Source: a virus
Reading direction: 5' to 3' (one strand)
DNA length: 44,967 bases
IMG/VR virus record: IMGVR_UViG_3300025141_000195
Location: 1 to 44,967 of that record
Part shown: positions 20,058 through 43,192 of the stretch, piece by piece
Layout: every line of letters begins with the position of its first letter
How positions within the stretch are numbered: the stretch's first letter is position 1
The notes under the pieces: model-generated
The model's input: only the letters and a program-made list of their open reading frames with translations
Databases searched by the model: none
Told to the model about the DNA's origin: nothing
Made by a program: the position numbers and the translations under genes

Positions 20058-20067
20058 TAACTAGTCT
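20058..20067 (-). promoter_or_regulatory. Late-type element variant before the tail tube gene
   Basis: AGACTAGTTA on the minus strand differs by one base from the AGACTAYTTA form found before other structural genes. It is about 25 bases before the tube start, in the 46-base space after the sheath gene. Confidence 0.35.
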
Positions 20068-20079
20068 TCAAACTGAGTT

Positions 20080-23000
20080 TTAGTCATCAAATGATGCCCC
20101 GGTTGAGGCGATGACAAAGTCGATTGCAATAAACTCGATTGCGCGAGCCGGCTTAATCATAATCTTAGCATACATGATGTTCTGATCAATGAGGTCCGGG
20201 GTGGTTGTGCTTTCATCAAGAATGAGGCGATATTCTGTAATACCATATCGAGTCTTAACGTTGGCGAGGAACGGCTCAATAAGGGCCTTAAATCGGTTCC
20301 ATGTAGCTTGCACATTCTGCTCAAAGAGAATCTGTGTTGAAAGAACCGAAATTTGTTTCTTGAGGTAGATTACCAATCTTCTTACATTCACTCTATCAAG
20401 TGCGGATTGACGCTCTTGAAGAGTTTTCTGTCCGAATACCACGATCCCGCTAGAGGGGAATGAGGCAATCGGGTTAATGCGGTTTTCATAAAGCGTATCG
20501 CGCTCCTTGGACGATAGGCGTGAAGTAACATTCGTGATTGGGATTCCTGCGGCGCCATCAGAGAGGCCTCCGCGGTTAAATCCTGCAGGAGCAAACCACA
20601 CTGCGGTTTTAGCTTCTGCGCTGCCTAACACACCGGCCATGGCTACGGTTGGTGGAATCCAAACCAGCTGGCCGGTAGTGGCGTCCCGAGTCTGAACCCA
20701 TGGGTAGAAAGTGGCACCGTAAGATGAGTCAATGCGACGATCTTTAAGCGAGTTGGCGATGTTGGTCACATTCCTGTTTGCGCGCTTATCCTTGGCCTTG
20801 TACGTCTCATGAGGCGGGGTATATACGTTCGCCAAGTCGATGAGCGCCATGGCATCGGCACGATCTTCACACAAGCTAATTGAATAACTCGTGAGAGAAT
20901 TGTTAGTGAGGCCCGGAGTGCTTAGCAGGTTAAAGTCAAGCAACTCAGGATCTGCCAGCGTTTCTAGTGCGCGGCGGTATGTGTGATAAACATAGTTGGT
21001 GTCTTCTGTGTCTCCACTGCTCATTAGTGAGTTAGCTAGGGGATCCGGCTTCGTAATATCGAATCCGTCGAAAGCTCCCCACACAGGGGCAGTAAAGCGG
21101 TTGTATCCTGCGTCAAGAAGCGTCTTATAGCTGCCTGTTCCAGCGGAGACTGAGTTGCCGCTAGCGCGGGAACCAGACTGGTAGTAATAAGAGCTTTTGT
21201 CGGAGTTGGCGCGTACATTATCAAGAGAGAAAATGTATTGCCACGACTTGGTGCCCTCACCCTGAGTAGCGCTGGTGGTGGGATCATCCGGGAATCCGGA
21301 CCACCACAGGCGGTTGCGATCGAAGACGCCATAACAGTTCTGAGAAGAATCTGCTGTACGTGTTGTCCTCATTCCAAAATATGCATCTGTAGGATCGGTG
21401 AGTCCTCCATCACTGGCGGATAATCTCAGTGGGCCCGATGGGAATCCGAGAGAAGCGGTAAAGGATGGGCCAGTACCAGCTTTGTTGAGACCTCCCGAAA
21501 GTCCGGAAGCTCGAACTGAAACACTCGATGCGGGGCCGTATCCCCATTGAATGAGTTCGGCACGAGCATATGGCTTCGAGCCGCTCATCCATCCGTCCGG
21601 GCTGGTGCCCGAAACATAAGTAATTGCACTTCCACCGCCGGAATTACGGTTTCGGAGTGATAAAGTCTGCTGGGCCGGTGGTGTTCCAGCTAGCGAACAG
21701 ATAATGGAGCCATTGTGCCCATTAGCAGATTCAATCGCAGTTTTAAGGCTAGCGAGAGCGCTTACTGTCGCTGTGCCCGTCAAGTAGGCGATAACCTTAG
21801 TACCACTGTTGACTTTTGCTCCGCTAGAGCCGGTGTTTACAATCTTATAATTCCGGACTGTTCCATTGCTGTCGGTGAGAACGGTGGTATAGACTGAAGC
21901 TGGGGCGCCCAAGGTACTTGGGGTGCTCTTGAACAACAGCGCGGGTGCAGTGGTACCACTGACCATTGAAACTTTCGATGTGGCAGCGCCAGCATTTACA
22001 CCCTGAGTGAAGAGGATTTTTGTCTTCGCATAGGAATTAGGTCTTGCATAACCTGCAAGAGAAGATGTGTTCTGAATCATGAGGCCCGGGCGGGATGTGC
22101 CAGATGGCTTGACTCCTGCGCGGGTTTTAAGCTGCGGAGGACCATAATAGCCGAAAGGCAGTAATGCCGGATCGGTGGCGCCGGCTTCGGCGTCTGGATT
22201 CATTTCGACATAAATAAAGTTTGAACGGTTGTCATACTCTCCATATTGACGGAGGCGGCGGTTGGTGGAATCCCACTTGTGGTATCTGTCACCGATCTTG
22301 CGTGCCACAAAATCAGGAGACTTGGGATCCATCGAGCAGTTATCAAAACGCTCAATAACCTGTACGTTATTGTCGGTATCATTGATGTTTCTCAAGACAA
22401 CCGAGAATGTACCATACTCGCTGGTGGTCGTGTTAGAGATGCGAATGTTCTCAATTGAGATTTTCACATGCTTGGGCAACCACTCACCGTGGCCGCGGCC
22501 AACAAGGCGGAATAATTTCTGCACCTTGGATGGAGTATAATCACTAGCAATTCCTGTATCTTGGGCAATAAACCAGCCTGCGACACCTTCGCGATGTGCT
22601 TGGCCTTTCATTTTCATGGGGCCGACCTGCGGATTGGTAGCAGAGCCAGAACCAATTGCCATAATAATACCAACTGCCTGAGTGCCTACTGCTCCGTTGT
22701 CGCGCATGTTCTGTTCGAAAGTTTCACCCAGCCAATAATCTACTTCGGCGCTAGCAGGATAATAACTGCCGCTTCCAATAAGCTGGGGGTTTGTATTAAA
22801 CTGGTTACGAATGAAGTTCTGTGAGTTATCATCAAAGTTAAATGTAAACGTTTCTGTCCCTTGCGCGGTACCATTAACGGTCATCTTAAAGACACCATTG
22901 GCATCAGATGTAATTAATGTACCTGCGGAGGCAGTAACGGCGGTGGTTCCCCAGACTGTACCACTGAGCTTGATAGAACCATTGTTCAAATACCAAATAG

Positions 23001-23475
23001 CTGCGCAGTCAAGGTTTCCGAGATTGCCGCGCGTATCGCCAGTAACACTCGATGACTTGATCAGGAAGAGTCCGTATGCGCCACCACCACTTTTGGGAGA
23101 GTTTACGGTTTGCCAACCGGCCTTGGCCGCGGCAGTGTTTTTCTTGCTTGTGGACTGCTCTCCGAGCAGGCGCACATAAGTAAGCGGTGCCACGCCAGAA
23201 TGCAGGAATGCCTTTGCGGCGTAAGTGCCGTACATGGGCGATTGGAGGTTTCCGTCGCGATAAACATCGCCTCCGCCAGAGCCCGGAACGGTATCTCCAA
23301 ACATATTCACAAAGTCGCTATATGATTCGATCTTTGTGGGAACATTCGCTAATCCCTTGCGTGCACGGCCGACGATTACGGGACCGATGTTATCCGGCGT
23401 ACGGGGGATAAATGAGTTATCAATTTCATTGATAAATACGCCGGGCGATACAAATTTAAAGTTTTTGACAGACAT
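20080..23475 (-). CDS. Tail sheath protein (gp18-like), unusually large
   Basis: 1131 residues. The N-terminus FVSPGVFINEIDNSFIP and GPVIVGRARKG are the sheath opening, where the first strand joins a neighbouring subunit. The C-terminal 160 residues, including LDRVNVRRLVIYLKKQI, FEQNVQATWNRFKALIEPFL and KIMIKPARAIEFIAIDFVIA, are the conserved sheath core that contracts. T4 gp18 has 659 residues, so about 450 more residues sit between these blocks, mostly Ser/Gly/Thr-rich (about residues 400-760), probably extra domains on the outer surface. The gene is unbroken. Two late-type elements lie in the 117 bases upstream. It is followed at once by the tube gene. Confidence 0.93.
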   Translation of the reverse strand: MSVKNFKFVSPGVFINEIDNSFIPRTPDNIGPVIVGRARKGLANVPTKIESYSDFVNMFGDTVPGSGGGDVYRDGNLQSPMYGTYAAKAFLHSGVAPLTYVRLLGEQSTSKKNTAAAKAGWQTVNSPKSGGGAYGLFLIKSSSVTGDTRGNLGNLDCAAIWYLNNGSIKLSGTVWGTTAVTASAGTLITSDANGVFKMTVNGTAQGTETFTFNFDDNSQNFIRNQFNTNPQLIGSGSYYPASAEVDYWLGETFEQNMRDNGAVGTQAVGIIMAIGSGSATNPQVGPMKMKGQAHREGVAGWFIAQDTGIASDYTPSKVQKLFRLVGRGHGEWLPKHVKISIENIRISNTTTSEYGTFSVVLRNINDTDNNVQVIERFDNCSMDPKSPDFVARKIGDRYHKWDSTNRRLRQYGEYDNRSNFIYVEMNPDAEAGATDPALLPFGYYGPPQLKTRAGVKPSGTSRPGLMIQNTSSLAGYARPNSYAKTKILFTQGVNAGAATSKVSMVSGTTAPALLFKSTPSTLGAPASVYTTVLTDSNGTVRNYKIVNTGSSGAKVNSGTKVIAYLTGTATVSALASLKTAIESANGHNGSIICSLAGTPPAQQTLSLRNRNSGGGSAITYVSGTSPDGWMSGSKPYARAELIQWGYGPASSVSVRASGLSGGLNKAGTGPSFTASLGFPSGPLRLSASDGGLTDPTDAYFGMRTTRTADSSQNCYGVFDRNRLWWSGFPDDPTTSATQGEGTKSWQYIFSLDNVRANSDKSSYYYQSGSRASGNSVSAGTGSYKTLLDAGYNRFTAPVWGAFDGFDITKPDPLANSLMSSGDTEDTNYVYHTYRRALETLADPELLDFNLLSTPGLTNNSLTSYSISLCEDRADAMALIDLANVYTPPHETYKAKDKRANRNVTNIANSLKDRRIDSSYGATFYPWVQTRDATTGQLVWIPPTVAMAGVLGSAEAKTAVWFAPAGFNRGGLSDGAAGIPITNVTSRLSSKERDTLYENRINPIASFPSSGIVVFGQKTLQERQSALDRVNVRRLVIYLKKQISVLSTQILFEQNVQATWNRFKALIEPFLANVKTRYGITEYRLILDESTTTPDLIDQNIMYAKIMIKPARAIEFIAIDFVIASTGASFDD

Positions 23476-23498
23476 CTTTGTAAAACCCTCTCTTCATT

Positions 23499-23508
23499 AA
23501 AGTAGTCT
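23499..23508 (-). promoter_or_regulatory. Late-type element variant, proximal copy before the sheath gene
   Basis: AGACTACTTT on the minus strand, about 24 bases before the sheath start. It matches the AGACTAYTTA form except for its last base, and is paired with a second copy 30 bases further upstream. Confidence 0.35.
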
Positions 23509-23527
23509 AATTGGTGGACAATCAACA

Positions 23528-23536
23528 GTAAATAGT
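23528..23536 (-). promoter_or_regulatory. Late-type element before the sheath gene
   Basis: ACTATTTAC on the minus strand, 53 bases before the sheath start, in the gap after the tail-completion gene. It shares the ACTATTTA core with copies before other virion genes. Confidence 0.45.
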
Positions 23537-23592
23537 TTACGCATTGTCAAAAGTCGTGAAGAGAATAAATAATTTTGCCTTCAGTTCAGGAA

Positions 23593-24477: not shown

Positions 24478-24955
24478 CGAAAAGCCCCTTTCTCGCTCTC
24501 TTGCAGATAGCAGATATTTCAAAACCATGATCTACTTGGCCAAACAGCTTGCTCTCTTCGGTTAATTTAACGATCTCATAAAAATAAGATCCATAAAGCA
24601 CAAAATCACCTTCTCGAACGTACATATTTTGATCCTCTTCCAGTCGACGTTTGTGAAAGTGCACCTTGATCTCCCAAGTCTTATCCACACCCGCACTCTT
24701 TAAATAGTCGGTTGAATAATCTGTAAATTCAACTAATGCATATATCCGCACTGGGGGGAGATAGCTTTTCTTGATCGCTTCTCCGTATAATTCATGAAAA
24801 TCCGTTGTTTCCATATCAATTGGATAATATAAAATCTGCTGGCCGATGATCTTTTCAATAAGTTCATCATTGACCTGCTTGACGAGATCGCGCTCTTTCT
24901 TACCAAAGAATAACGGTGGAGGCGGCTGTTTGGGTCTCTTCCATTCGTTGGACAT
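24467..24955 (-). CDS. Neck / head-closure protein (gp14-like position)
   Basis: 162 residues. A Pro-rich start (KRPKQPPPPLFFGKKERDLV) leads to a helix VKQVNDELIEKIIGQQILYY, then beta strands including VRIYALVEFTD and EGDFVLYGSYFYEIVKLTEE, which resemble the small barrel of head-closure and neck proteins (YPIDMETTDFHELYGEA before the barrel). In T4, gp13 and gp14 seal the capsid and receive the tail; this gene lies between the other two neck candidates. It overlaps the next gene by 11 bases and begins 6 bases after the previous stop, so translation is coupled. The exact T4 counterpart is uncertain. Confidence 0.62.
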   Translation of the reverse strand: MSNEWKRPKQPPPPLFFGKKERDLVKQVNDELIEKIIGQQILYYPIDMETTDFHELYGEAIKKSYLPPVRIYALVEFTDYSTDYLKSAGVDKTWEIKVHFHKRRLEEDQNMYVREGDFVLYGSYFYEIVKLTEESKLFGQVDHGFEISAICKRARKGLFDAT

Positions 24956-24960
24956 TTAAA

Positions 24961-26229
24961 TTACCCCACAAATATCGGCAACGGAGAGTTTTTGAACGTA
25001 GTAGCGGTTGCCTCAGATTTTTCGCTATCGCGCTTGACGAGTTCGCCGTATTCCATGCTCGTGAGAATCTCTAGAAGTTTGTCTCGCAATTCTTGTTGTT
25101 CGGCTTTTGCCTGCCCCAATAGTTCGCTGTGATTTAGAGTAACGCTTTGGCCTGGGATTGGCATCTGAGTAAACTTGCCTCGAATTTGCCCCAACATCTC
25201 CTTACATACGGCCAAACTATATTTTCGAATCCATTGCTTTCCGATGGCATTGATATTTCGAAAAGGAATATTATTATAGGGAAGCGTGTTCATATTGTTG
25301 ACGCCCTTTACTCCGTCGTCATAACCAGCGCCTGTGTCGGTGGAGTCTGTTTTAACGTAAAATTGAAACCATATTTCGCTATTCATGAAGGGAAAAAGAC
25401 TCGGTGACGGAAAAAGTCGCAGTTTATTGTTTTTGATTTCATATGAATAGTGAGATGTGCGTGTAAATAGAGAATCTTCATACATGATAGCTTGCATTTT
25501 GTTCTGCCACGTAGGAATTATCTCAAAAGTTGAGTCATCTGCAAATTGTCCATATGTTGAATAGTTTCCTACCACGCCGATGCCGCCATAGTATCCATAA
25601 AAACGCCACATGGCCCGGGGTGACTTAAAAAACACCTTGGTGACGTATACTCTATTGTTTCCGACTTTTCCTGCATAGGGCACAGTACGACCTTTTTCGT
25701 CGGTGCCGCTTGTAGATGCTGTTTCAACAATACTCTGAAGATCATAGTCTTGGCGGCTGTCTTTTGGTATCAAAGACGCAGAGTAGATCGTGGTGGTGCC
25801 GCCCATGTTGGCCATCGTTGCGAGGCCATCTCCCACCTTGCGTGCATATGCAGCCTGAAAGCGTGGATATCTCAGATTTGAACCGGTGGGGCCCGCTTTC
25901 TGATTTCCGCGATGATCAAATGTGCCCGTGGTATCGCCTAAAGCATCAGACAAGGCATTCTTGCTCTGGTGGAGATTAACAATATACGAATATTCTAATA
26001 CGGCTTCTTCATAGGCCGCATAAACATTAGCGGGAGTTAACTCGATGTCCACCACGTCGCCACCGAGCTTCTTATACACATAAGCTACTTGTAGTTTCGC
26101 TCCCTTGAGAAAATCGGCCGAGCCAGTGTACGCACCAATAGGACAGCCGGCAGCTACTTTGGTAGTGCTACCTGTGCTAGTAAGAACTATTGCGCTAGTT
26201 TGAGATTTCGGGGAAAGGTTTGTCGGCAT
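24961..26229 (-). CDS. Neck or head-completion protein, 422 residues
   Basis: 422 residues. Residues about 55-90 contain the acidic helix TPANVYAAYEEAVLEYSYIV, common in adaptor and neck proteins that dock under the portal, followed by a Gly/Asn-rich loop. The middle holds VYVTKVFFKSPRAMWRFYGY and NKLRLFPSPSLFPFMNSEIW, and the end has a long helix, KAEQQELRDKLLEILTSMEY. The location directly before the two neck genes and after capsid genes suggests a gp13-like neck or connector role; no enzyme motif is visible. AGGAG lies ten bases before the ATG, and a late-type element 18 bases before it. Confidence 0.62.
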   Translation of the reverse strand: MPTNLSPKSQTSAIVLTSTGSTTKVAAGCPIGAYTGSADFLKGAKLQVAYVYKKLGGDVVDIELTPANVYAAYEEAVLEYSYIVNLHQSKNALSDALGDTTGTFDHRGNQKAGPTGSNLRYPRFQAAYARKVGDGLATMANMGGTTTIYSASLIPKDSRQDYDLQSIVETASTSGTDEKGRTVPYAGKVGNNRVYVTKVFFKSPRAMWRFYGYYGGIGVVGNYSTYGQFADDSTFEIIPTWQNKMQAIMYEDSLFTRTSHYSYEIKNNKLRLFPSPSLFPFMNSEIWFQFYVKTDSTDTGAGYDDGVKGVNNMNTLPYNNIPFRNINAIGKQWIRKYSLAVCKEMLGQIRGKFTQMPIPGQSVTLNHSELLGQAKAEQQELRDKLLEILTSMEYGELVKRDSEKSEATATTFKNSPLPIFVG

Positions 26230-26246
26230 GCATGTGGGCTCCTATG

Positions 26247-26255
26247 CTAAATAGT
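26247..26255 (-). promoter_or_regulatory. Late-type element before the 422-residue neck gene
   Basis: ACTATTTAG on the minus strand, 18 bases before the start codon. It shares the ACTATTTA core with five other copies upstream of virion genes. Confidence 0.45.
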
Positions 26256-26294
26256 TTTACAAACTACAAAATTCAATGCGTAGAAACGTTTATT

Positions 26295-26693
26295 TTAGGC
26301 CGATGTAGAACGCGTCTTAGTTTTGGCTGTTTTTCTCGTACGTTTCCGAGTAGTAGCGCGCTTTTTGGGGGCGCTTTTTGTGATCTCTTTGATCACGGGA
26401 ATCTCCTCCGCAACGGGAGCGATCACCTCTGCCGCTGTTTCGATTTCAACTTCCGGCTCCACAGTGGGGGCTGGTGCGGTGAATTCGACATATGCTGAAG
26501 GATCTGGGGTACTGGCGATGATCGGGGTTGTAGTCTCCGTTGCCAATACTACCTCGGGAACCCTCTTTGCCTCCTTATTGGGGGGCTTTTGTTCTTCTTC
26601 AAGTTGCGCACTAATCCATTTCATTCGAGGGTGAGATGCGTGTTTGTTTTTAAATTTATTCCGGGCGGACATTAATCTTCTTTTTTTTCCCAT
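26295..26693 (-). CDS. Basic-ended low-complexity protein, possibly DNA- or capsid-associated
   Basis: 132 residues in three parts. The basic N-terminus starts MGKKRRLMSARNKFKNKHA. A long acidic Pro/Val/Ala/Glu linker (about 45-100) has runs like PTVEPEVEIETAAEV. The C-terminus KKRATTRKRTRKTAKTKTRS resembles histone H1 or Lys/Ala-rich DNA-binding tails. No folded domain is obvious. It sits between the decoration-protein unit and the neck genes, and a strong hairpin terminator lies upstream of it. AGGAG precedes the ATG and a late-type element lies 25 bases further. An internal head protein bound to packaged DNA would fit both charge and place, but this is inference. Confidence 0.6.
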   Translation of the reverse strand: MGKKRRLMSARNKFKNKHASHPRMKWISAQLEEEQKPPNKEAKRVPEVVLATETTTPIIASTPDPSAYVEFTAPAPTVEPEVEIETAAEVIAPVAEEIPVIKEITKSAPKKRATTRKRTRKTAKTKTRSTSA

Positions 26694-26717
26694 TTAAAAC
26701 TCCTAGGTTGGGCTATA

Positions 26718-26726
26718 GTAAATAGT
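26718..26726 (-). promoter_or_regulatory. Late-type element before the basic low-complexity gene
   Basis: ACTATTTAC on the minus strand, 25 bases before the start codon and about 90 bases past the 12-bp terminator. It therefore sits where a fresh start of transcription is needed. Confidence 0.5.
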
Positions 26727-26813
26727 AGCTTCTCGCCTAAAGCGAAAATCTCAAAAATTTGTCAGGGAAAAAATTTAAGAGATCGGCATTTTAACACCCA
26801 AGATCTCAAAATA

Positions 26814-26843
26814 AAAACCCCACCCGGCAAGGGGTGGGGTTTT
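26814..26843 (-). terminator. Rho-independent terminator after the decoration-protein gene
   Basis: A perfect 12-bp stem, AAAACCCCACCC with GGGTGGGGTTTT, closes a six-base loop and is followed by TATTTT on the minus strand. It lies 29 bases past the stop at 26872. The A/T-flanked stem could also stop plus-strand transcription. Confidence 0.9.
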
Positions 26844-26871: not shown

Positions 26872-27333
26872 TCAAGTCCATGCGCCGGCAGCTACAGCAT
26901 CCAAGTTGCCACGAATATACATCGACGTTCCGTCACATGTAATTTCTAGCCAGTCTCCAATATTGCCGCTAGTATCAATAGTGAAGGTGCCATTCGCATC
27001 ACTCTGAAGCGAACCATCGTCACATGTGATGAGTCCCATCAACTCGGTGCCATTAGCTGTAACAGCAAAACTTGTGGCGGGCTCATCGGTCAGGATGATC
27101 TTGCAGTGCCAACCAGCACCTGCTGCGGCAGATGTAGGAAGCGTAAGCACGGTGGTTCCCGCGTTAACAAAGTACACCTTTCCGCTGTCGGAAGCTGTGG
27201 CGCTTACCGAAGTGGTAACATTTTGGGTCTTCTTCTTTATACCCACAAGCGACGTGCCGTTTAACTGTAAATCTCTCTTTAAATTCTGAATTAGTGCTTG
27301 GGTTCTAGCCAAACCTACTCTTTTTGTTCCCAT
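26872..27333 (-). CDS. Probable capsid decoration protein
   Basis: 153 residues. The basic helical N-terminus (MGTKRVGLARTQALIQNLKR) is followed by a beta domain with VYFVNAGTTVLTLPTSAAAG and an end containing LEITCDGTSMYIRG. This beta domain resembles the C-terminal module shared by the phage's fibre proteins: a strand of LPsA type, a strand of II type, then an NGT/DGT turn. Location straight after the major capsid gene, with its own Shine-Dalgarno site (GGAGG) and a strong terminator on each side, suggests an abundant outer capsid protein such as a Soc/Hoc analogue. A fibre attached to the head is the alternative. Confidence 0.6.
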   Translation of the reverse strand: MGTKRVGLARTQALIQNLKRDLQLNGTSLVGIKKKTQNVTTSVSATASDSGKVYFVNAGTTVLTLPTSAAAGAGWHCKIILTDEPATSFAVTANGTELMGLITCDDGSLQSDANGTFTIDTSGNIGDWLEITCDGTSMYIRGNLDAVAAGAWT

Positions 27334-27395: not shown

Positions 27396-27405
27396 TAAGT
27401 AGTCT
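27396..27405 (-). promoter_or_regulatory. Late-type element variant before the decoration-protein gene
   Basis: AGACTACTTA on the minus strand, between the two hairpins and 63 bases before the decoration start. The same ten bases occur at 37001-37010 before a fibre gene. Confidence 0.45.
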
Positions 27406-27416
27406 CGCCATACAGG

Positions 27417-27444
27417 AAAGCCCCCGTTAAAAAACGGAGGCTTT
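27417..27444 (-). terminator. Hairpin terminator after the major capsid gene
   Basis: AAAGCCTCCGTT and AACGGGGGCTTT pair over 12 positions with one mismatch around a four-base loop, 29 bases past the capsid stop. T runs lie within the stem ends; the following sequence is only mildly T-rich. Confidence 0.7.
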
Positions 27445-27472: not shown

Positions 27473-29329
27473 TTAGCCGCTAGTAGCACCAGACTCACCA
27501 AGCAGTCCTCGCACAACAACAAGGCCGTACATATCAGGACGCACCATCTTCTTGGCATAGCGAGTCATCACGCCCTTGCGGGGCACGAAGTCTTCGACGC
27601 CGAAGATCGTGGGTGTAGTTTGCAGTGGTACATACGGTGCGTACACATATCCGCTTTCAAGGAAAGAGGATCCGCGACGTCCGACGAGAATCACGTTACG
27701 CAGGAAGTACGGGTCAACAATGACGTCGAACTTCTTACTGAGTGATCCCACCTTGACGGCACCGATGCTTCCGCGGTCGTCATCAGCAGTGACGGAAGCA
27801 CGGAATCCAGCGGTGAACTCAAGAATGTTGGCAACTTCAGGTCCACAGACGATGAAGTTAGCGCCACCACGCAGAGTCTTGCGATGGATTTGTGCAGAAA
27901 CGTCATTGATGGTTTCCGCGAGAGTCTCATACCACTCGGATACCGTACCGGTGAAGTCAGGAGCAGCCGAAGATGCGCCAATTTCAGCACCAGTTGTACG
28001 GTCCACGAAGAGACCCGGAGCGCGCGACCAATAATAGGTAGCGGCAGTTGCACCGTTGACCAAATCACCGATAATCTCACGATCAATCTCAAGAGCAACT
28101 TGCTCAGAGAGAATGCTCGTAAGCTCGACTTCCGCATCAAGGTTGTGGTAGGCATTAAGGTCTTGCCCTAATTCCGGAGTCCACTTAGCCTTGAGCTTCT
28201 TGGTCATCGCCGTGACAGCCACGGAATCGACCTTGATGTCGATCTCTGGGATGTCAGCGGAGCCTTCCAGTCCCCACTCAGTAGCACCAACAACCGCACC
28301 AAGTCTACCAGATCCAGCATTCTGGAAGGTATCCACGATGGGAGTTTGGACAGTAATTAGACCAGCGCGCTTAGAGATGTTACCGACTGAAGACGGAACC
28401 ACAAATACCATCCGCACAGCGCTTCCGGTAACGGGACCTGACTTGGCACTCTTCACCAATGTGGTAAGTCGACGAACCTGTTTGGGGCCCGTATTGCCGA
28501 ACCACTTGGTATCGCCGGTGTTTGTAACACCAATGCCAGAACCTGAAAGTGCAGAAGCCGAAACTTCAAAAGCACCAAGGTTATTAAAGTCAGCCGTCCG
28601 TGAACCTGATAGCAACATCTTCTTGTCAATTTCGAGAACAAGAACACTGTATGCAGTGGTGCTCCCTGTCAAAGCGTTGATATCCGGATCATACTCAATC
28701 AGCTGCTGCTGAGCGCGGGCAGTATGAAGCGATGAGGAGTGAATACCCCAATACTTCTTAATAGACCACTTTCCTTTACCGCATTGATGGCCACCCTTTG
28801 GCGATGCATACGCATAACCGCGTGCACCAACAGTACGAGGACCAGACTTATCTTGAGCCATGTTACCGACCAGGTCAAGACCGCCCGTGATCTCGGCACC
28901 AACTTTGTTGCCACCATAGATCGAGGAGCCAGAAATGTTACCAAATCTGTCCTTGGCCTGAGCGTCGTTCGCAGTTCCACCGAGGTCGGGGGAATACACG
29001 AAGTCAAGGAAGAAGATGAGTCCCGAGGGGAGACTCATCGGCTGAACGCTAACGAGATCGTTAGCAATTAAGCCTGCGAATACACGACGTACGATGGGGA
29101 ACGCGACGGCTGCAAAGCCCTCAACATCTCCAGCGCTCATGCTGCTACTTTCGCGGAGTAGTTCTTTTGCTTGGTTTTCAAGCAAGCGAGCCATAGCCGT
29201 CTTCTGACGATCCTTATCAAGACCTTCAAGAAGTCCCGTCTTCTCCCACTTGGAAAGAAGAGCGTGGCTTTCTGCTCGCATATCACGATTGACAACACCT
29301 TCTGTCAATCTTTCGATAATACTAGACAT
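27473..29329 (-). CDS. Major capsid protein (gp23-like)
   Basis: 618 residues, somewhat longer than T4 gp23 (521). The N-terminus, MSSIIERLTEGVVNRDMRAE, is helical and would be the region removed by the prohead protease in gp23-type capsids. The conserved core begins GFAAVAFPIVRRVFAGLIAN and continues VSVQPMSLPSGLIFFLDF, the clearest gp23 hallmark. WTPELGQDLNAYHNLDAEVE and a stretch near the C-terminus, FDVIVDPYFLRNVILVG, are also typical of HK97-fold T4-type capsids. AAAGGAGGTGA gives the strongest Shine-Dalgarno site in the window, in line with very high expression. It directly follows the scaffold gene and ends before paired hairpins. Confidence 0.95.
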   Translation of the reverse strand: MSSIIERLTEGVVNRDMRAESHALLSKWEKTGLLEGLDKDRQKTAMARLLENQAKELLRESSSMSAGDVEGFAAVAFPIVRRVFAGLIANDLVSVQPMSLPSGLIFFLDFVYSPDLGGTANDAQAKDRFGNISGSSIYGGNKVGAEITGGLDLVGNMAQDKSGPRTVGARGYAYASPKGGHQCGKGKWSIKKYWGIHSSSLHTARAQQQLIEYDPDINALTGSTTAYSVLVLEIDKKMLLSGSRTADFNNLGAFEVSASALSGSGIGVTNTGDTKWFGNTGPKQVRRLTTLVKSAKSGPVTGSAVRMVFVVPSSVGNISKRAGLITVQTPIVDTFQNAGSGRLGAVVGATEWGLEGSADIPEIDIKVDSVAVTAMTKKLKAKWTPELGQDLNAYHNLDAEVELTSILSEQVALEIDREIIGDLVNGATAATYYWSRAPGLFVDRTTGAEIGASSAAPDFTGTVSEWYETLAETINDVSAQIHRKTLRGGANFIVCGPEVANILEFTAGFRASVTADDDRGSIGAVKVGSLSKKFDVIVDPYFLRNVILVGRRGSSFLESGYVYAPYVPLQTTPTIFGVEDFVPRKGVMTRYAKKMVRPDMYGLVVVRGLLGESGATSG

Positions 29330-30650: not shown

Positions 30651-30659
30651 ATAAATAGT
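30651..30659 (-). promoter_or_regulatory. Late-type element before the scaffold gene
   Basis: ACTATTTAT on the minus strand continues as TTTGAAC, almost identical to the copy at 43182-43190 (ATTGAAC), and both lie 32-33 bases before a start codon. It would serve scaffold and capsid genes together. Confidence 0.55.
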
Positions 30660-30684
30660 TTTATTAACCCCAAAAACCATTACT

Positions 30685-33998: not shown

Positions 33999-35111
33999 TT
34001 AGAGCGCCCACCAACTTCTTCCATCGGATTGCAGGGTCTTAGTTGCGCCGCGGGTCCTAATCTCTACTCGCTTCTTGAGGTCGACAAGTTCGTCTTCGGC
34101 TTCAATAACGACTGCTAAAGTTTTTTGATTTGCCTTGCCTCTATTAATATTTTTAACCACTATAAGGCGGCCGGCACACGTTGCTGCCGATGGTAGGGTC
34201 ACCAAAACTTTATTCTTGGTAGTGTCACACAACACCGTATAGTCATTGTTCGCTACTACATACAACATATCTGATACTGTGGTTATATTTTTGTGTACAG
34301 CGCCATTGCATACCAGTCTTTGATTTATGTGGGCAACATCTGCGTTGACCTCGCCGGCGACACGCAAAACGTTACTGGTCGCGTTGTAGGTGAGATTTTC
34401 TGACGCGTCTAAGGTGCCCTTCCCTTTCAACTGCAGGGAACCTCTTACTCCCTTGGGCCGCGGCATTTTGAGGCTTAAGTAATCCTCATACAGATCTTTT
34501 AGCGTAATGCCATATGTGTTTTTCATAGATTGATTGCCAACAATCAAAAGATCATCTGCGGCCACCGACTGGCCCGTGCGTTTGATGTTTTGCAGTTTTG
34601 TGGGATCTATTCCCAGCGCATTCGTTGCCAGAGTCAGGCCTCCTTGGGGCACGACATTCAAGCGTACCCCTGCGGTGTCGACTGAAAGGCCTGGGCCTGC
34701 ACCAAGAGACAGAGAACCATTGACACTTTTAAGGCCGGTACCGAGCTTAAGTTGGGTTGCGGTAATCGGACTGCTCAAGGCCTCTGTAGATATGTTGGTT
34801 AAATTAGAACCGTCGCCATGCACTGACCCGGCACACACCGTATCCACCGTTAGTTCTCCGTCGTCATAAGAAAGTTGCGGCGATGCATATGCTACGCCCT
34901 CTCTACCTAAAACAAGTACTGAATTGGGTACGTTCCCCACAATCGTGCGTAATGCTACGTCTTTTAAAGTTGCACACGGGCTTTGTGCATCCGTATCATA
35001 AAAGACACTAGCGCTGATTGTGCTTTTGAAAACTTTAACACCATTAATTTCTTGATCGGCATGTTGATCAACGGAGCCAGCAACATTCCCCTTTAATACA
35101 TTATAAGCCAT
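33999..35111 (-). CDS. Tail fibre protein with MAYN N-terminus and GDGS motif
   Basis: 370 residues. MAYNVLKGNVAGSVDQHADQ begins the shared N-terminal segment. About residues 90-105 hold CAGSVHGDGSNLTNIST, the GDGS-x-LTNI motif that also occurs in the 1303-residue fibre and is common in phage fibres made of beta-helical repeats. A middle part of alternating G/L/S strands follows (LGTGLKSVNGSLSLGAGPGL). The C-terminal module is YTVLCDTTKNKVLVTLPSAA, RLIVVKNINRG and an end TLQSDGRSWWAL. A terminator lies upstream of it, and a late-type element is 18 bases before the ATG, so it may start its own transcript. Confidence 0.7.
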   Translation of the reverse strand: MAYNVLKGNVAGSVDQHADQEINGVKVFKSTISASVFYDTDAQSPCATLKDVALRTIVGNVPNSVLVLGREGVAYASPQLSYDDGELTVDTVCAGSVHGDGSNLTNISTEALSSPITATQLKLGTGLKSVNGSLSLGAGPGLSVDTAGVRLNVVPQGGLTLATNALGIDPTKLQNIKRTGQSVAADDLLIVGNQSMKNTYGITLKDLYEDYLSLKMPRPKGVRGSLQLKGKGTLDASENLTYNATSNVLRVAGEVNADVAHINQRLVCNGAVHKNITTVSDMLYVVANNDYTVLCDTTKNKVLVTLPSAATCAGRLIVVKNINRGKANQKTLAVVIEAEDELVDLKKRVEIRTRGATKTLQSDGRSWWAL

Positions 35112-35127: not shown

Positions 35128-35136
35128 ATAAATAGA
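35128..35136 (-). promoter_or_regulatory. Late-type element before the 370-residue fibre gene
   Basis: TCTATTTAT on the minus strand (first base differs from ACTATTTAT), about 18 bases before the start and 30 bases after a terminator, a logical place for a new start of transcription. Confidence 0.45.
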
Positions 35137-35165
35137 GCTTAAATTACTTAATATTCATAAAAAGA

Positions 35166-35188
35166 TGCCCCCCCACAAGGGGGAGGCA
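35166..35188 (-). terminator. Rho-independent terminator after the 555-residue fibre gene
   Basis: TGCCTCCCC and GGGGGGGCA pair over 9 positions with one mismatch around a five-base loop and lead into TCTTTTTATG on the minus strand. It lies 37 bases past the stop at 35225. Confidence 0.8.
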
Positions 35189-35224
35189 CCAAAAGGATAA
35201 CCAAATCCAAACACAAGGTTTAGA

Positions 35225-36892
35225 TTAGAAGATTCTCCAAGTATCAGCAGCAACATATTTCAGAGAGATAGAAGCATAGGCTTCGGTAATGCGAAGCTCT
35301 GTCAATCCATCAATCGTCTGGGAACCAGCGCGCGCGACGATGATCACACCAGAGGCACCAATTGCGGCAGCTTTGATGTAAACCGTATCGCCCACAGACA
35401 GACCGGCCGAAGCAGGCAGTGTCCAAGTACGAGCAGCTGTGATCTCAGCACTAGCATAGTTGAATGCTTCCGTAAGGGTAGCATTTGCATCGCCCACAGC
35501 GGCAGGAGCCGAAGCGGCAGACACGCTAAGTTGACCAGAGGAAGCAGACAGACCAGTACCAGCCATGCCAGCAACAAGGTCAGCAATGCTTTCCTTGCGA
35601 GAAGCGTTACTGTCGTTAGCGTCGACGATAGCAATGCTATCGGTAGCAACGTCAACAGCAGCAGCAGTCAACTCGTTAAGGTCAAGAGCCATAACTGCGG
35701 TAGTTGCGGAAAGACCATCACCAGCGAAAAGAGTAGCCATGTCGTCGATTGTGACTTTCTTAGGAATGTCAGAATCGTTAACGTCAGCAAAAACGAACTC
35801 ATCGAGCGTTTGAACTGCGGCAGCGCTTAAGCTTTGTGGATCAAACTGAAGTTTACCACCCGAAGATGCGAAGCCGGGCTCCGAAGCAACAAGTGCAGCT
35901 GCATAGTCAGCCATGGTGTCACGCTTAAGCGTGCCGTCTGCATCACGGAAATAGAAGCTGTCAGCACTAACGTCAAGCGCAGTATCGCCAGCGCCACTAA
36001 GAGTGATTGCACCCTGAAGATCAGAGGCGCCCTCAGCGGTCAGTGCCTGCAGAGTGGTTGCTCCGCCGGCCTGAAGAGTGCTGGAGCCGCTTATTGTCGT
36101 AGCAGTAACAACTCCAAGAGTAGAGGCTCCTGTTACTGTCATGGCGTCGATATGACCGACATCAGCATGAACTTCAGCCCACTGAAGCGCACTAGAACCT
36201 AAGTCACTAGTAGAATCAGCAATTGGAAGAAGATCAGAGTCGAAGCGACCGGTAACAGTAACACTGTCTGTGGCAGCGTTACCAAGGTCTACATTGCCCT
36301 GAACACCCAAAGAGCCGATAACCTCGACTAAGGTAGCTGTGATATCAACATCACCGCTTGATACGATGTCTAGATCAGTACCATCGCCGGAGATATATTC
36401 GCCGGCGTTACCGAAAGCGAGCCTAGCTCCACTCGCGGCCATCACGCAGTTATTCGCTGCTTGATCGGTCAAAGTGAACTTAGACGTACTACCAATGTTG
36501 ATGATTGCACCATCAGATAACAGATCGAGATCATCACCGATAACAGCACTTTTAGCAACACTCAAACCACCATCGGTCTGTAAAGAACCGTCAGTAGTAG
36601 AAGTTGCCTCAGTGGTGTCGTCAGTTTTGAGAACACCAGAGTAAGTACCAGTGGTACCCACAACTGCGGCGAAAGAACCAGCGGCAACCGAAGTAGCACC
36701 AATAACGGTACCATCAATGTTACCACCGTTAATATCGGCAGTATCAGCAACGAGACTGTCAATGTTTGCAGTGCCGTCGATGTAGAGATCTTTCCACTCC
36801 AGACCGGAAGCACCAAGGTCGAAAGCGCCATCTACAGCTGGTGCAACTGCACCGCTTAGTTCCGCAGGACCTGTTTGAAATTTATAAGACAT
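35225..36892 (-). CDS. Tail fibre protein with internal repeats and shared C-terminal module
   Basis: 555 residues, strongly Ala/Asp/Ser/Thr-rich with few Lys or aromatic residues. Two repeats of a chaperone-joint type occur: FDLGASGLEWKDLYIDG near residue 25 and SDLGSSALQWAEVHADVG near 230. Three 50-residue repeats follow, seen in LKRDTMADYAAAL, PKKVTIDDMATLFAGDGLSA and SRKESIADLVAGMAGTGLSA, each with an Asp/Asn-rich strand before. The C-terminal module has WTLPASAGLSVGDTVYIKAA and SQTIDGLTELRI and ends ADTWRIF. Regular repeats suggest a trimeric beta shaft. GGAGGG is well placed upstream, a terminator lies downstream, and the 136-base leader carries a late-type element. Confidence 0.75.
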   Translation of the reverse strand: MSYKFQTGPAELSGAVAPAVDGAFDLGASGLEWKDLYIDGTANIDSLVADTADINGGNIDGTVIGATSVAAGSFAAVVGTTGTYSGVLKTDDTTEATSTTDGSLQTDGGLSVAKSAVIGDDLDLLSDGAIINIGSTSKFTLTDQAANNCVMAASGARLAFGNAGEYISGDGTDLDIVSSGDVDITATLVEVIGSLGVQGNVDLGNAATDSVTVTGRFDSDLLPIADSTSDLGSSALQWAEVHADVGHIDAMTVTGASTLGVVTATTISGSSTLQAGGATTLQALTAEGASDLQGAITLSGAGDTALDVSADSFYFRDADGTLKRDTMADYAAALVASEPGFASSGGKLQFDPQSLSAAAVQTLDEFVFADVNDSDIPKKVTIDDMATLFAGDGLSATTAVMALDLNELTAAAVDVATDSIAIVDANDSNASRKESIADLVAGMAGTGLSASSGQLSVSAASAPAAVGDANATLTEAFNYASAEITAARTWTLPASAGLSVGDTVYIKAAAIGASGVIIVARAGSQTIDGLTELRITEAYASISLKYVAADTWRIF

Positions 36893-36933
36893 ATTTTAAA
36901 ACCCTCCATTTTATAGTTTTTATATTTTGTCAA

Positions 36934-36993
36934 GCGAGCAGTAATGCACCTATTCACCACTCCATATCAAAATGGAAGTTACACAGGGCTCGC
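36934..36993. other. Inverted-repeat leader region before the 555-residue fibre gene
   Basis: GCGAGC (36934-36939) pairs with GCTCGC (36988-36993), enclosing a smaller hairpin TCCAT-6-ATGGA (36961-36976). The 136-base gap between the two fibre genes otherwise holds only the late-type element and the Shine-Dalgarno site. It may be a leader structure or a remnant terminator. Confidence 0.35.
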
Positions 36994-37000
36994 CTGCTCT

Positions 37001-37010
37001 TAAGTAGTCT
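37001..37010 (-). promoter_or_regulatory. Late-type element variant before the 555-residue fibre gene
   Basis: AGACTACTTA on the minus strand, the same ten bases as at 27396-27405. It lies about 110 bases before the start, farther than the other copies, leaving room for the structured leader. Confidence 0.45.
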
Positions 37011-37028
37011 TGTATAAGAGATAAAAAT

Positions 37029-38120: not shown

Positions 38121-38132
38121 TTTTTACTCTTC

Positions 38133-41100
38133 TTATGTGTAGTCTATCTCTATTCTCGACAAATACCCAGTCCAATTTTGGTTGGCAGAGATCTTTAAAA
38201 TAAAGTATTGATTATTCCGAACCTGTTTCTCTTGTAACTGGATTGGTATTTCTCTTCCGCCTGCTCCCACCGACTGTGAGAGATCTGTGCCTCCTAAATT
38301 CAAAATTCCTACTCCGTCAGCATCTGGCTGCGTGCCGGCAGAGTAGGGCCTTATACAATCAACCCATGCGGTTGAAGTATCGTCCAACCCAGTGAAGGCC
38401 GGATCGGATGGGGTCTTCAATTCTACTTGAATATTTGAATTTGCTCCCAATGATCCTGTATAAAATGCGCCGGCTTGAGAAATCAAATTAGCCGAACCGT
38501 ATAATTTGATCTTAAAAGTAGCTTTTGAGAGGCCAGTCTTGTTAATAAAATATCTATAATAAGTTCGGGTGGCATTCGTCAAAGAAGAATAGTTGGGATT
38601 ACTGGCCGGGGCTTGCAGTGAGCCGCCATCTGCTCGATTGCGTGTGTCACCGACATTTCCAATTTTAAGAGGAGATATTGCATATCCATTGGCTGTCACC
38701 ACTCCATCGGCGTGTTCTGCGTAACTGCCAGCGTCGTTAACCGATCGGGCGGAGTTCCACTTGTTTGCGGCGTCTGTTACCGCTGCTTGGTTTGCATAGG
38801 CGCCCGAGACTATTCGGTACGTTTCAAGGCCGAAGTATTCAGCGCTGCCGCTTGTTGTGCTCCCAAGGCTTCCAGAATAAACCATGAATGCATTGCGGCT
38901 ATATTGGGTTATATTCAGATTACTCTTAAGGGGGTGAAGGACAGTCGAATCTACCGCAATATCATAATCGGTATACAAGCCCAAGCCGCCTGAAATAGAG
39001 GTTAAGCTATCAAATAGGACCGTGCCTGTGACCTGTATATTCTGCTGTTCGCAGTTAGCAGAGTTGTTGAGAGATGCGAGAGAAGTAGAAGATGCAGCCG
39101 TCGATAGTGTCGTCACTCCGGAGCCTACAATTCTAATATTACTCACCGCACAATTGGTAGTGGTCGGATAGGAGATAGCTGTACCATTTTGATACACATT
39201 TCGATAAACATTTGAAGCCAAGTAGGTGTAAGAGCCAGACGGCCGTGAAGCAAAATATCCGATCCCAGACTGATAGTAAGTGTCGGCATGCGAGAAATTG
39301 GACAATCCGACCGAGGACGAGGCCAGATTGTTTGAGTCAGTATCTACTACCCATTCAACATAGTTTGTAGTAGTGTCAGAACCGCCTATCCGATGTATCA
39401 CTCTGGCATAGTTCCACCCGAGGCGTTGATCCCCCGCTCCTACCTGATAGTCCCCTGTTCGATATGGCTTCTCGTAGCTTGGAATTCCATCCACGCTACT
39501 AAAGTCAACCGCCGAGACACTAAATCCAGAATCATTTCCATTAAAGTCGTTACTTATGCTGTTGAGATTAACCATGCTTACAGAGTGAACTTCTGCTCCG
39601 TTGACCTCCATCACTAACAATCCAGAATATGCATCTTTAAAGGCGTTTGCAGGGTAGTTGTCGCCACTTGATGGTACATCCTCGTTCAACTCCCCAGTGA
39701 GGGTGGGGAAGCTGCTAAAGATGCCACGACGATCGCCGCTTAAATCATATAAATCGTTGGAATCATAATTTGTCAGACCAATTGCTGCGCCTAGAGCGTC
39801 CGAATAGCTTGCCACATTGTTGGAGGATCCGAACGAAAGTTTAGCATCAGTACCAGAATTGTTGGCATCCACATCGTCAAGTGCGGGAGCCTCGGTAGTG
39901 GTATTGGTGGTGGCGCCCAAGGTGAAATCAAGCTGTGAGACGTATCCCGACCAACTGGAATCAGTCACTATTTTAAGCATCACATGTTCATTGTTGGCTA
40001 CGGAGCCCGTGCCAAACGTAATACAATGAACCGAGTTGCCGGTACCGGTAGTGTTGCTGTTGTCGTTGGCTCCGTTAATGAGTGCGCCTGCACCGTCCGT
40101 AATGCTGCCATATGTAAAGTTTTGAGATACATCCATCCACCCAGAGGTGCCGGGGAGCTTAGCAAAAAAGTGGACATCATTGGAGTCCAGAGCATTATTG
40201 GAGAATGCTGTTCCATTTTTGGTGGAAGTTATCTTAAAGTCACTCTTACTAACTCCACTAGAATTGGAGAGTACTCGATAGAATGTGCGTTTCCCCGTTG
40301 TGGTCGAATAGTTAGGCTGGCCTGATTCAACATTTGAGAGGCCCGAGAACTTACCGTTCAAAGGTATGTCATCATCAATGGGGCTGTAGAGCCTCTGGTT
40401 GAAGAGTAGTAGCCCGTCGGTGTGACCAGCGGGCCCACTCGCGGTCATATGGTTTTGTGAGTTCCATTTACCGCCGGCCGCAGTGACTGCACCCTGAGTG
40501 GCGTAGGAGCCCGATGTCTTGCGGTAGGTTTCGTCATGAAACTTTTCAGATAGATTGGTACTATCTAAGGTTCTATTGTCAACGAGGAAGCCATCTCCGG
40601 TCGTCGCAGAACCCGCATTTGATATTGTGTTCTTAAGGGGGTGGGTAACTGTCACATCTGTGGTGATCGCACCGCTGAGCAACGAATCAACGCTAGCGTT
40701 AACATCCAAGGAACCCGTGATTCCCAAGGTCTTTTTATTGGTTTGGGGTGCTGCTATGTCCGGTACAGACTGTGCCGCTGGGGTGGAGGAATTAGTTGTA
40801 CTAAAGGAAATTGGAGTACCAGAGGCTGCGTAGACGTTCCGGTATAAGTTCACAATGTCGGCTTTATAGTTGGCGGTTGCATCTGTGTTATATTGAACGC
40901 CAGATAGATATTTGGAGCCAACTAGGGTAATGTTTTCTATGCGCGCATTGGTAGCCCCAAGATCATTGACAGCGCCGGAGGGATCATTTATCCACTCAAT
41001 ATAGTTTGTAGTGTAGTCGCTTGAGCCGATAGTGTGTATGACTCTTGCATAGTTCCAGCCCGGGCTCATGTCTGCAGAGCCAATCTTATATTTTGACGTT

Positions 41101-42044
41101 CTTTGTTTGAAGATTGTCCATTCGGCGCCGTTACCGTCGTATCCCGAAGCGGTGACCGAGAGTGCTATAAAGCCCGTGTTACTGGTAACGCTGCTGGCAG
41201 AACCAGTGCCGGGTGCGCCGGTGCCAACTGCTCCCGTCAGCGAAATAGAGTGATAGGTGGTGCCATTTAATTCTAGCTTCAGGGTACCCTGTTCGGCGTT
41301 TCCAAATGCCGCTGAGGCATAATTAAGATAGGTACCTTCTTTCTTTTTGGCTACATTATAATTGATGGTGCCGGTGATGTTTGTGGATCCGCCATATACT
41401 CCTAGGCGGAAATTGTTTCCACTTGTTGCGGGAGCATAAGTTCCGGCGCGTGCAACAGCAGAGAAGCCGGCTGCCGTCGCCGAAGAGGTATATTTATTAA
41501 CCGGATATGATGACCCAAATGAAAGTTTGGCGGTGACACCTTGGGTGGTGCCATAATTAATTCTCTGAACAGACGGCGCGGGATCTGGGGCCAAGATCTT
41601 TAGCACTTCATTAAAGCGATCAATCGGAACCCCTATAAGGGTGTCCTCTGTAAAGTCGGTAAACAAGCCATCAGTATAAGAACCATCGGGGGCTGGCCCA
41701 ATGGCTCCGCCAGATGAACTAATGTTTGTTAGCCTAGAACCATCTCCATAGAAGAAAGAGGCGGAGATGTTAGCACTAGCACTCACTTCTCCAACGATGG
41801 ACAACTGGTTTGGTGTGCTCGAAGGGTTAAACTTTAAATTGGCGCTACATTCAAACTTGTTTGAATTGCCGTCAACGTTTATGACAACAGCATTATCTGC
41901 CGGCGTTAAAACGCGCGGGACTTTCCTTATGGCGGAGCCATCGCCCTGCAAGGTTCCCGATATAACATTGGTGCCCGGCTGGCCCAATCCGGGGCCAAAA
42001 TACTGGGGAGCAATGATTGACCCAGTTAGTCTGTTGTATGCCAT
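38133..42044 (-). CDS. Very large tail fibre protein with a tandem duplication of about 550 residues
   Basis: 1303 residues. It opens MAYNRLTGSIIAPQYFGPGL, then a fibre shaft segment with ASANISASFFYGDGSRLTNI. From residue about 172 to the end, two copies of a roughly 550-residue unit follow. Copy one starts AKLSFGSSYPVN (172), copy two AKLSFGSSNNVA (about 733). Matching landmarks are GWNYARVIHTIG with GWNYARVIHRIG, TTNYIEWINDP with TTNYVEWVVDT, VTHPLKN with VLHPLKS, and KRTFYRVLSNSSGVSKSDFK with TRTYYRYFINKTGLSKATFK. The copies have diverged to moderate identity, so the duplication is old. The protein is Ser/Asn/Gly/Thr-rich and should be beta-rich. Its length suits a long fibre or main adhesin. 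AGGGAG precedes the ATG. Confidence 0.82.
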   Translation of the reverse strand: MAYNRLTGSIIAPQYFGPGLGQPGTNVISGTLQGDGSAIRKVPRVLTPADNAVVINVDGNSNKFECSANLKFNPSSTPNQLSIVGEVSASANISASFFYGDGSRLTNISSSGGAIGPAPDGSYTDGLFTDFTEDTLIGVPIDRFNEVLKILAPDPAPSVQRINYGTTQGVTAKLSFGSSYPVNKYTSSATAAGFSAVARAGTYAPATSGNNFRLGVYGGSTNITGTINYNVAKKKEGTYLNYASAAFGNAEQGTLKLELNGTTYHSISLTGAVGTGAPGTGSASSVTSNTGFIALSVTASGYDGNGAEWTIFKQRTSKYKIGSADMSPGWNYARVIHTIGSSDYTTNYIEWINDPSGAVNDLGATNARIENITLVGSKYLSGVQYNTDATANYKADIVNLYRNVYAASGTPISFSTTNSSTPAAQSVPDIAAPQTNKKTLGITGSLDVNASVDSLLSGAITTDVTVTHPLKNTISNAGSATTGDGFLVDNRTLDSTNLSEKFHDETYRKTSGSYATQGAVTAAGGKWNSQNHMTASGPAGHTDGLLLFNQRLYSPIDDDIPLNGKFSGLSNVESGQPNYSTTTGKRTFYRVLSNSSGVSKSDFKITSTKNGTAFSNNALDSNDVHFFAKLPGTSGWMDVSQNFTYGSITDGAGALINGANDNSNTTGTGNSVHCITFGTGSVANNEHVMLKIVTDSSWSGYVSQLDFTLGATTNTTTEAPALDDVDANNSGTDAKLSFGSSNNVASYSDALGAAIGLTNYDSNDLYDLSGDRRGIFSSFPTLTGELNEDVPSSGDNYPANAFKDAYSGLLVMEVNGAEVHSVSMVNLNSISNDFNGNDSGFSVSAVDFSSVDGIPSYEKPYRTGDYQVGAGDQRLGWNYARVIHRIGGSDTTTNYVEWVVDTDSNNLASSSVGLSNFSHADTYYQSGIGYFASRPSGSYTYLASNVYRNVYQNGTAISYPTTTNCAVSNIRIVGSGVTTLSTAASSTSLASLNNSANCEQQNIQVTGTVLFDSLTSISGGLGLYTDYDIAVDSTVLHPLKSNLNITQYSRNAFMVYSGSLGSTTSGSAEYFGLETYRIVSGAYANQAAVTDAANKWNSARSVNDAGSYAEHADGVVTANGYAISPLKIGNVGDTRNRADGGSLQAPASNPNYSSLTNATRTYYRYFINKTGLSKATFKIKLYGSANLISQAGAFYTGSLGANSNIQVELKTPSDPAFTGLDDTSTAWVDCIRPYSAGTQPDADGVGILNLGGTDLSQSVGAGGREIPIQLQEKQVRNNQYFILKISANQNWTGYLSRIEIDYT

Positions 42045-42065
42045 TCATGGTTCTCCCTATCATAA

Positions 42066-42716: not shown

Positions 42717-42720
42717 GGGC

Positions 42721-43149
42721 CTAACTTACCCCTAACGAGCCTGACCAACTGGGGCCGATGGAGCCCGATACCTTATTAGGACGAATGGATGTCATGCCGG
42801 CAACCACTGACACCTCGGGGGTACCGGCTGAGTATAGCCACAATTCCGCAACTTTTAATTCCAAGCGTACGCTGTTGTGATAATTTCCCGATGTACCGTT
42901 TCCTTTGGGCACGACAAAAAAGTTTGCATTGGGGGCGTTGAGGCCATTCGAAGAGAAGGCGACCTTCACATCCGAACTACCATTGTTAACAATGTAAACC
43001 CAGCGAGAAACGTAAGGGAACTGTACCTGTGTCTTCGTTGCGGCCGACATCGTTTGGTGATAAGCAAAGGGGCGACCGCTAACTTGATATGACGGCACAT
43101 TGTTGACGCCTACGTCGGAGGCCCACGATGGATTCCAGTTTTTAGCCAT
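42721..43149 (-). CDS. Probable virion protein, small beta-sandwich type, at head of fibre operon
   Basis: 142 residues. It starts AKNWNPSWASDVGVNNVPSY, continues with QVSGRPFAYHQTMSA and strands RWVYIVNNGSSDVKVAFSS, then ELKVAELWLYSAGTPEVSVV, and ends in a Gly/Ser tail with GSIGPSWSGSLGVS. The even run of strands with small loops suggests a jelly-roll or beta-sandwich fold. I do not recognise a named family. The gene begins a run of fibre genes, follows the bS21 gene, and carries a full late-type element 33 bases before its start. A fibre-base or head-surface protein is plausible. Confidence 0.58.
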   Translation of the reverse strand: MAKNWNPSWASDVGVNNVPSYQVSGRPFAYHQTMSAATKTQVQFPYVSRWVYIVNNGSSDVKVAFSSNGLNAPNANFFVVPKGNGTSGNYHNSVRLELKVAELWLYSAGTPEVSVVAGMTSIRPNKVSGSIGPSWSGSLGVS

Positions 43150-43181
43150 GTTTAAAAATCTCCATAATTTAAATGTTCAAT

Positions 43182-43190
43182 ATAAATAGT
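43182..43190 (-). promoter_or_regulatory. Late-type element at the head of the fibre gene run
   Basis: ACTATTTAT preceded by AG and followed by ATTGAAC on the minus strand, 33 bases before the start at 43149. Together with 30651-30659 it gives the longest shared form, ACTATTTAT(A/T)TTGAAC. Confidence 0.55.
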
Positions 43191-43192
43191 CT

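Follow-up and report, generated by a model that had tools for sequence, protein, structure and literature searches.

What is the short element that recurs upstream of the virion genes on IMG/VR virus contig IMGVR_UViG_3300025141_000195, and what reads it? An earlier note, made from the sequence alone, proposed that the element, ACTATTTA with close variants, is a candidate phage-specific late promoter. The contig (44,967 bases, analyzed at its full length and called the window here) carries every gene on the minus strand. A replication block encodes a B12-type ribonucleotide reductase, a DnaB-like helicase, a 5'-3' exonuclease, RecA, a gp32-like protein and a piece of a family-A DNA polymerase, and a virion block encodes a T4-type capsid protein, a contractile sheath, a tube, a baseplate hub and a head-tail adaptor. 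The late-promoter proposal is strongly supported by the sequence evidence: the element is enriched, its strand bias is near absolute, it lies before virion genes and is conserved before their orthologs, it has a -35-like partner at a fixed distance, and a purine occupies the predicted +1. We consider it probable that the element serves as the -10 part in late promoters of a lineage of marine T4-related myoviruses, often accompanied by a -35-like box, with a gp55-class sigma factor as its likely reader.

The ten sites listed in the earlier note were all present on the minus strand, with edges within 1 to 2 bases, and the start codons lie 17 to 108 nt after them, close to the 18 to 110 bases claimed. 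ACTATTTA occurs seven times on the minus (coding) strand, against 1.28 copies expected, and never on the plus strand; none of 100 shuffled sequences reached seven. Within the 1.4 kb of intergenic sequence, ACTANTTA was found nine times in the sense orientation (0.35 expected) and never in antisense. The single orientation noted earlier therefore held, but since all of the window's genes are on the minus strand, orientation alone is weak evidence; what counts is the absence of the element from the plus strand and from most coding DNA. The association with virion genes held as well: among gaps of at least 40 bases, the element or a one-base variant was present in 10 of 10 in the virion block and 0 of 4 in the replication block (Fisher p 0.001). 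The T4-type late core TATAAATA is not the sense element, which reads ACTA(T/C/A)TTA instead; the excess of TATAAATA in gaps falls on the antisense strand, as the reverse complement.

Relatives were collected with the capsid protein (27473-29329), which found hundreds of contigs; 80 were kept, giving 81 contigs and 961 kb with the window included. Gene calls in these relatives are heuristic and their records are possibly incomplete; the contigs share ancestry, so that counts are not independent events, and the proteins compared are about 40 to 65% identical. Flavobacterium phage immuto, Microcystis phage Mel-JY01 and Rhodothermus phage RM378 are among the closest named phages in capsid and sheath, and no named phage matched the virion half of the window at the DNA level. 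Across the 81 contigs, ACTATTTA occurs 261 times in sense and 3 times in antisense, and 219 of the sense copies (84%) fall in gaps, which make up 6.6% of the bases; control words had no such bias. The comparison of both strands and of coding with intergenic DNA proposed in the earlier note thus gave nothing like equal frequencies. ACTATTTAT behaved in the same way in 12 of the longest relatives, where all 55 copies lie on one strand per genome (55:0). The motif-finder check proposed at the same time agreed: unseeded expectation-maximization from random start positions in 495 gap segments returned ACTATTTA as the top motif, in 75% of segments. Run on single whole long genomes, the same procedure was dominated by early promoters and ribosome-binding sites and, in one of them (G001), failed to return the late motif unaided; for this reason the search was confined to gaps in the virion regions of many contigs.

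Where a window gene carries the element, its orthologs mostly do too: 68 of 71 for the head-tail adaptor-like gene (24961-26229), 30 of 32 for the tail tube gene (19428-20033), 10 of 10 for gene 42721-43149, 9 of 9 for gene 26295-26693 and 20 of 29 for gene 26872-27333, with weaker retention at the tail sheath gene (20 of 48). Orthologs of window genes without the element carry it in 0 of 54, 2 of 72 (the major capsid protein), 0 of 28 and 0 of 13 cases. The element is kept among phages whose major capsid proteins are 58 to 72% identical and whose base composition differs. It was not seen upstream of genes in the first 50 kb of Rhodothermus phage RM378.

Alignment of 324 sites revealed a second box, G-G-(C/G)-n-T-T-T(-T), at -20 to -13 from the first base of ACTANTTA. 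This box, GGCnTTT, lies about 13 bases upstream of the -10 element at near-fixed spacing. Purines are found at +13 and +14 from the same base (the former in about 80% of the sites), and little else is conserved. With the eight bases numbered -13 to -6, following T4, the conserved purine becomes +1 and the box spans about -33 to -27. The element described in the earlier note is thus real, but it is only half of a two-box promoter whose upstream part had been missed. The box looks like an intrinsic terminator's end, and a terminator-like hairpin lies upstream in 136 of 353 sites, with about -17 to -13 as the commonest end of its 3' arm. The 149 hairpin-free sites have the same columns at the same spacing (G44 G54 C44 n T68 T74 T69 per cent), which indicates that the box is real and that terminators often overlap it. 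A position weight matrix built from hairpin-free sites, with the contigs of long genomes left out, peaked at this spacing, +/-1, in 13 long genomes outside the training set, and the peak recurred in their hairpin-free sites. No such peak was seen at the TATAAATA sites of T4 and P-SSM2, which number only 10 and 3. Sequence statistics show both boxes, with their spacing, strand, location and conservation.

The sites in the window, all on the minus strand, combine these parts to differing degrees. The tail sheath gene (20080-23475; phrog_23, E 3.9e-62) is served by ACTATTTA at 23529-23536, 53 nt upstream, with the -35-like box GACTTTT at 23549-23555 (5.2 bits, offset +1) and a weak, degenerate second copy, ACTACTTT, at 23499-23506. 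The variant ACTAGTTA (20058-20065) precedes the tail tube gene (phrog_4542, E 4e-19) by 24 nt. The major capsid gene of T4 type (gp23; 27473-29329, phrog_138, E 4e-69) has no element of its own; just upstream of it, gene 29360-30619 is preceded at 32 nt by ACTATTTA (30652-30659; 29 of 51 orthologs) with the box GGTTTTT at 30672-30678 (5.4 bits, offset +1). The head-tail adaptor-like gene has ACTATTTA at 26248-26255, 18 nt upstream, and a weak box, TGAATTT, at 26269-26275 (3.3 bits, offset 0). Gene 26295-26693 has ACTATTTA at 26719-26726, 25 nt upstream, with an intrinsic terminator upstream of the element at 26814-26843, and gene 42721-43149 has it at 43183-43190, 33 nt upstream. ACTACTTA lies 62 nt before gene 26872-27333 (27396-27403), and its box, GGGCTTT at 27417-27423 (7.1 bits, offset 0), is made up, by inspection, of a hairpin's 3' arm and T-tract (hairpin at about 27417-27444); here and at related sites, the 3' arm and U-tract of a terminator also supply the -35 box of the next late promoter. 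The other copy of ACTACTTA (37001-37008; 3 of 13 orthologs) is 108 nt before gene 35225-36892. TCTATTTA at 35129-35136 (9 of 12 orthologs) comes directly after a terminator at 35164-35190 and 17 nt before gene 33999-35111. Three sites are absent from the earlier list: a weak variant, ACTAATTA, before gene 15780-18230 (18252-18259; 4 of 11 orthologs), an exact ACTATTTA inside a gene (24701-24708) and ACTATTTAT at 367-375. The last of these, within open reading frame (ORF) 325-594 and about 60 nt before the peptidoglycan-binding (endolysin-like) ORF 1-306, is a possible late promoter.

The gaps of the replication block hold sigma70-like hexamers in place of the element, in agreement with the earlier note; a consensus scan gave 34 matches versus 22 in shuffles. 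Promoters of this type in the block include TTGACA-17-TATACT at 5251-5223, TTGACT-16-TATATT at 4219-4192, TTGACA-17-TACATT at 7616-7588 and TTGACT-17-TATATT at 9715-9687. The late element does not fit the host sigma70 pattern (TTGACA / TATAAT, 16 to 18 nt apart), since its consensus pairs GGCnTTT with ACTATTTA across a shorter spacer.

Long relatives encode a protein of 229 to 230 residues that matches the gp55 late sigma family (phrog_234; 228 loci). It is longer than P-SSM2 gp55 (about 160 codons); the PHROG match leaves out its last 56 or so residues, and a three-helix, helix-turn-helix (HTH)-like domain (predicted local distance difference test score, pLDDT, 90) is predicted for the C-terminal 72. 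A search of PDB sequences with the gp55 profile gave no match. The gp55-class sigma is annotated as a hypothetical protein in Flavobacterium phage immuto (MW353176, 78130-78828) and Microcystis phage Mel-JY01 (PP395634, 158764-159534). The gp33 profile PF16805 matched in 0 of 12 long relatives, where a very diverged gp33 would escape it (controls: T4 6e-28, P-SSM2 2e-30). The gp45-type clamp profile PF09116 likewise matched in 0 of 12, and a very diverged clamp would escape it (P-SSM2 control 5.8e-14); clamp profile PF02916 matched in 0 of 9 and the bacterial clamp profile PF02768 in 0 of 12. These negatives agree with the family-A polymerase in the window. That polymerase gene is partial (400 residues, 8454-9656) and is possibly split as in RM378.

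Promoter function, the reading of the -10 element by gp55 and the reader of the -35 box are what we infer from these patterns. The -10 part, ACTATTTA at -13 to -6, is most likely recognized by host core RNA polymerase under the direction of the phage's gp55-class sigma; in many sites it is joined by GGCnTTT at about -33 to -27, and initiation would fall on a purine about 6 nt past the -10 element. For the -35 box, the most likely reader would be a DNA-binding domain that the gp55-class sigma carries or has as a partner, foremost gp55's own C-terminal HTH-like extension, with sigma or its partner acting instead of a clamp tether; such reading would stand in for the gp33 co-activator and sliding clamp of T4. 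Terminators of the preceding genes often lie where their 3' arm and U-tract make up the -35 box, packing the end of one unit against the next promoter.

Several observations weigh against this reading. The phrog_234 match is modest (E 9e-5), and gp55 is absent from the 45-kb window fragment, so that its link to the element rests on the relatives. The C-terminal domain gave only nonsignificant matches, mostly to DNA-binding HTH proteins and not specifically to sigma region 4; the predicted fold of the whole protein has several sigma factors among its weak matches, the best at E 0.009. For gp33 and gp45, absence means that the profiles used detected neither, and the records searched may be incomplete. 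The -35 box is weak or absent at about half of the window's own sites. The gp55 proteins of immuto and Mel-JY01 share the C-terminal extension, yet the -35 peak is missing in immuto and weak in Mel-JY01, with few sites. No isolate of exactly this phage group was found.

The main competitor for the -35 box is a small protein. Many relatives encode a Cys-rich protein of 79 to 107 residues with a sigma70 region 4.2 HTH (PF04545, E 2e-10, with PDB sigma matches) in which the DNA-reading residues are changed; it was found at 325 loci, and its gene adjoins a ACTATTTAT site. Its N-terminus reads C-x10-C-x4-C..W..NC (loci L154-L233, for example G005 complement 16374-16634 and G002 complement 43029-43253), and the gene sits between a 108-residue ORF and an acidic protein/ClpP cluster. 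One copy (G019:C1:32497-32751, minus strand) has an in-frame TAA within the matched stretch. No full-length relative occurs in named phages, and the gp55 profile does not match the protein. A clear region 4.2, wide distribution and the neighboring ACTATTTAT site would suit a split sigma in which this protein reads the -35 box beside gp55. Yet the -35 peak stays at the same spacing in five long genomes where no copy was found, among them G001, whose syntenic cluster is present and lacks the gene. The protein is therefore rejected as the sole cause of the box, and we think the split sigma unlikely; it may modulate late or other promoters. A -10-only promoter of T4 type, with the upstream box representing only the ends of terminators that precede late genes, would account for the hairpins and for the TATTTATA promoters of immuto, which show no -35. 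The GGCnTTT columns of the 149 hairpin-free sites are the ground for rejecting the box as mere terminator sequence, the peak in hairpin-free sites outside the training set points the same way, and we judge this reading quite improbable.

Other explanations concern the -10 element itself. Two boxes at roughly sigma-like spacing could mark a promoter read late in infection by an alternative sigma factor of the host, but conservation across diverged capsid proteins and differing base composition, a gp55-class sigma in the lineage and the ordinary TTGACA-type promoters of the same phages' early genes make this very unlikely. The earlier note's alternative, an RNA-processing site, or more broadly an mRNA-stability element in late transcripts, fits a position just before genes and always in sense. 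It is disfavored to the point of being extremely unlikely by the fixed upstream partner box, the frequent placement directly after intrinsic terminators, the purine at +1 spacing and the variable distance to the start codon. An opposite-strand T4 late promoter (the reverse complement of ACTATTTATA is TATAAATAGT) was rejected, as the upstream box, the +1 purine and the downstream virion genes all fit the sense direction. The suggestion of a different sigma factor or a phage RNA polymerase stands in its first half, a diverged gp55-class sigma being likely on the evidence of relatives; a phage single-subunit RNA polymerase, for which no search was made, is disfavored, and the two-box layout argues against it.

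A bolder version of the gp55 reading is tentative, and we lean somewhat against it: a clamp-free, gp33-free branch of T4-type late transcription in which a gp55-class sigma with a C-terminal HTH alone would recognize a bipartite promoter, with terminators built as the -35 box. In textbooks, replication-coupled activation through a sliding clamp, at a -10-only promoter, is exemplified by late transcription in T4. If the clamp-free branch is real, it would reveal the route by which a sigma region-4 function gave way to the clamp-coupled system of T4 or was recovered from it. A large marine group with a gp55-class sigma and a -35 box, in which clamp and gp33 are undetected, offers a natural comparison for the role of each part. 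As a practical rule, the promoter should help to locate late operons in uncultured marine phages, across hundreds of contigs, and to name gp55 genes annotated as hypothetical.

Neighboring genes have features of their own. The sheath (1131 residues, 20080-23475) and capsid (618 residues, 27473-29329) proteins exceed their T4 counterparts in length, and the family match of the sheath is limited to its C-terminal part. A phage-encoded homologue of ribosomal protein S21 lies within the virion block (43193-43441; PF01165, E 1.4e-8). Virion-block genes 33390-33965, 33999-35111, 35225-36892 and 38133-42044 encode similar N-termini (MAYN/MSYK...); their products are perhaps paralogous fiber or decoration proteins, and some of the genes may have a late promoter to themselves.

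Late promoters of T4 have no upstream or -35 element; T4 gp55, the late promoter recognition protein, docks where sigma domain 2 docks, and gp55 with gp33 is thinkable as a split sigma (PMC2988020). The window's element resembles them as a short AT-rich sense element at -13 to -6 before virion and not replication genes, in a lineage with a gp55-class sigma, and in the register TATTTA(T)(A) it matches TATAAATA at six of eight positions. Its core sequence differs, and the group has a -35-like box, with gp33 and gp45 undetected. The late element of Aeromonas phage Aeh1, (a/g)CTAAATA with C at -12, goes with a diverged gp55 (PMC1524935). It shares six of eight positions with ACTATTTA in the same register (C at -12, TA at -11/-10 and the final TA), stands before late genes and is presumably read by that diverged gp55; it differs in a central AA where ACTATTTA has TT, no -35 box is reported, and Aeh1 belongs to the T4 group proper. 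The element is thus distinct from the T4 motif, as the earlier note stated, but less foreign than was claimed. Immuto and Mel-JY01, with related capsid and sheath proteins, have sense TATTTATA before virion genes (putative late promoters by our reading) and gp55 homologues 26 to 29% identical to those of the window's group; they lack a strong ACTA start and a clear GGCnTTT box. The SPO1 gp33/gp34 late sigma and Bacillus SigO/RsoA divide sigma activity over two polypeptides and use two-box promoters. These are unrelated phage and host systems with other promoter sequences, likened here by description only. A search of the open-access literature, with subscription papers outside its scope, found no report of the promoter described here. 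Several T4 features are not shared on strict comparison, so we treat it as a variant of the T4-type late promoter and not as a member. It looks like a T4-family late promoter lineage with a TT center, in which the -35 box was gained or kept in the window's group.

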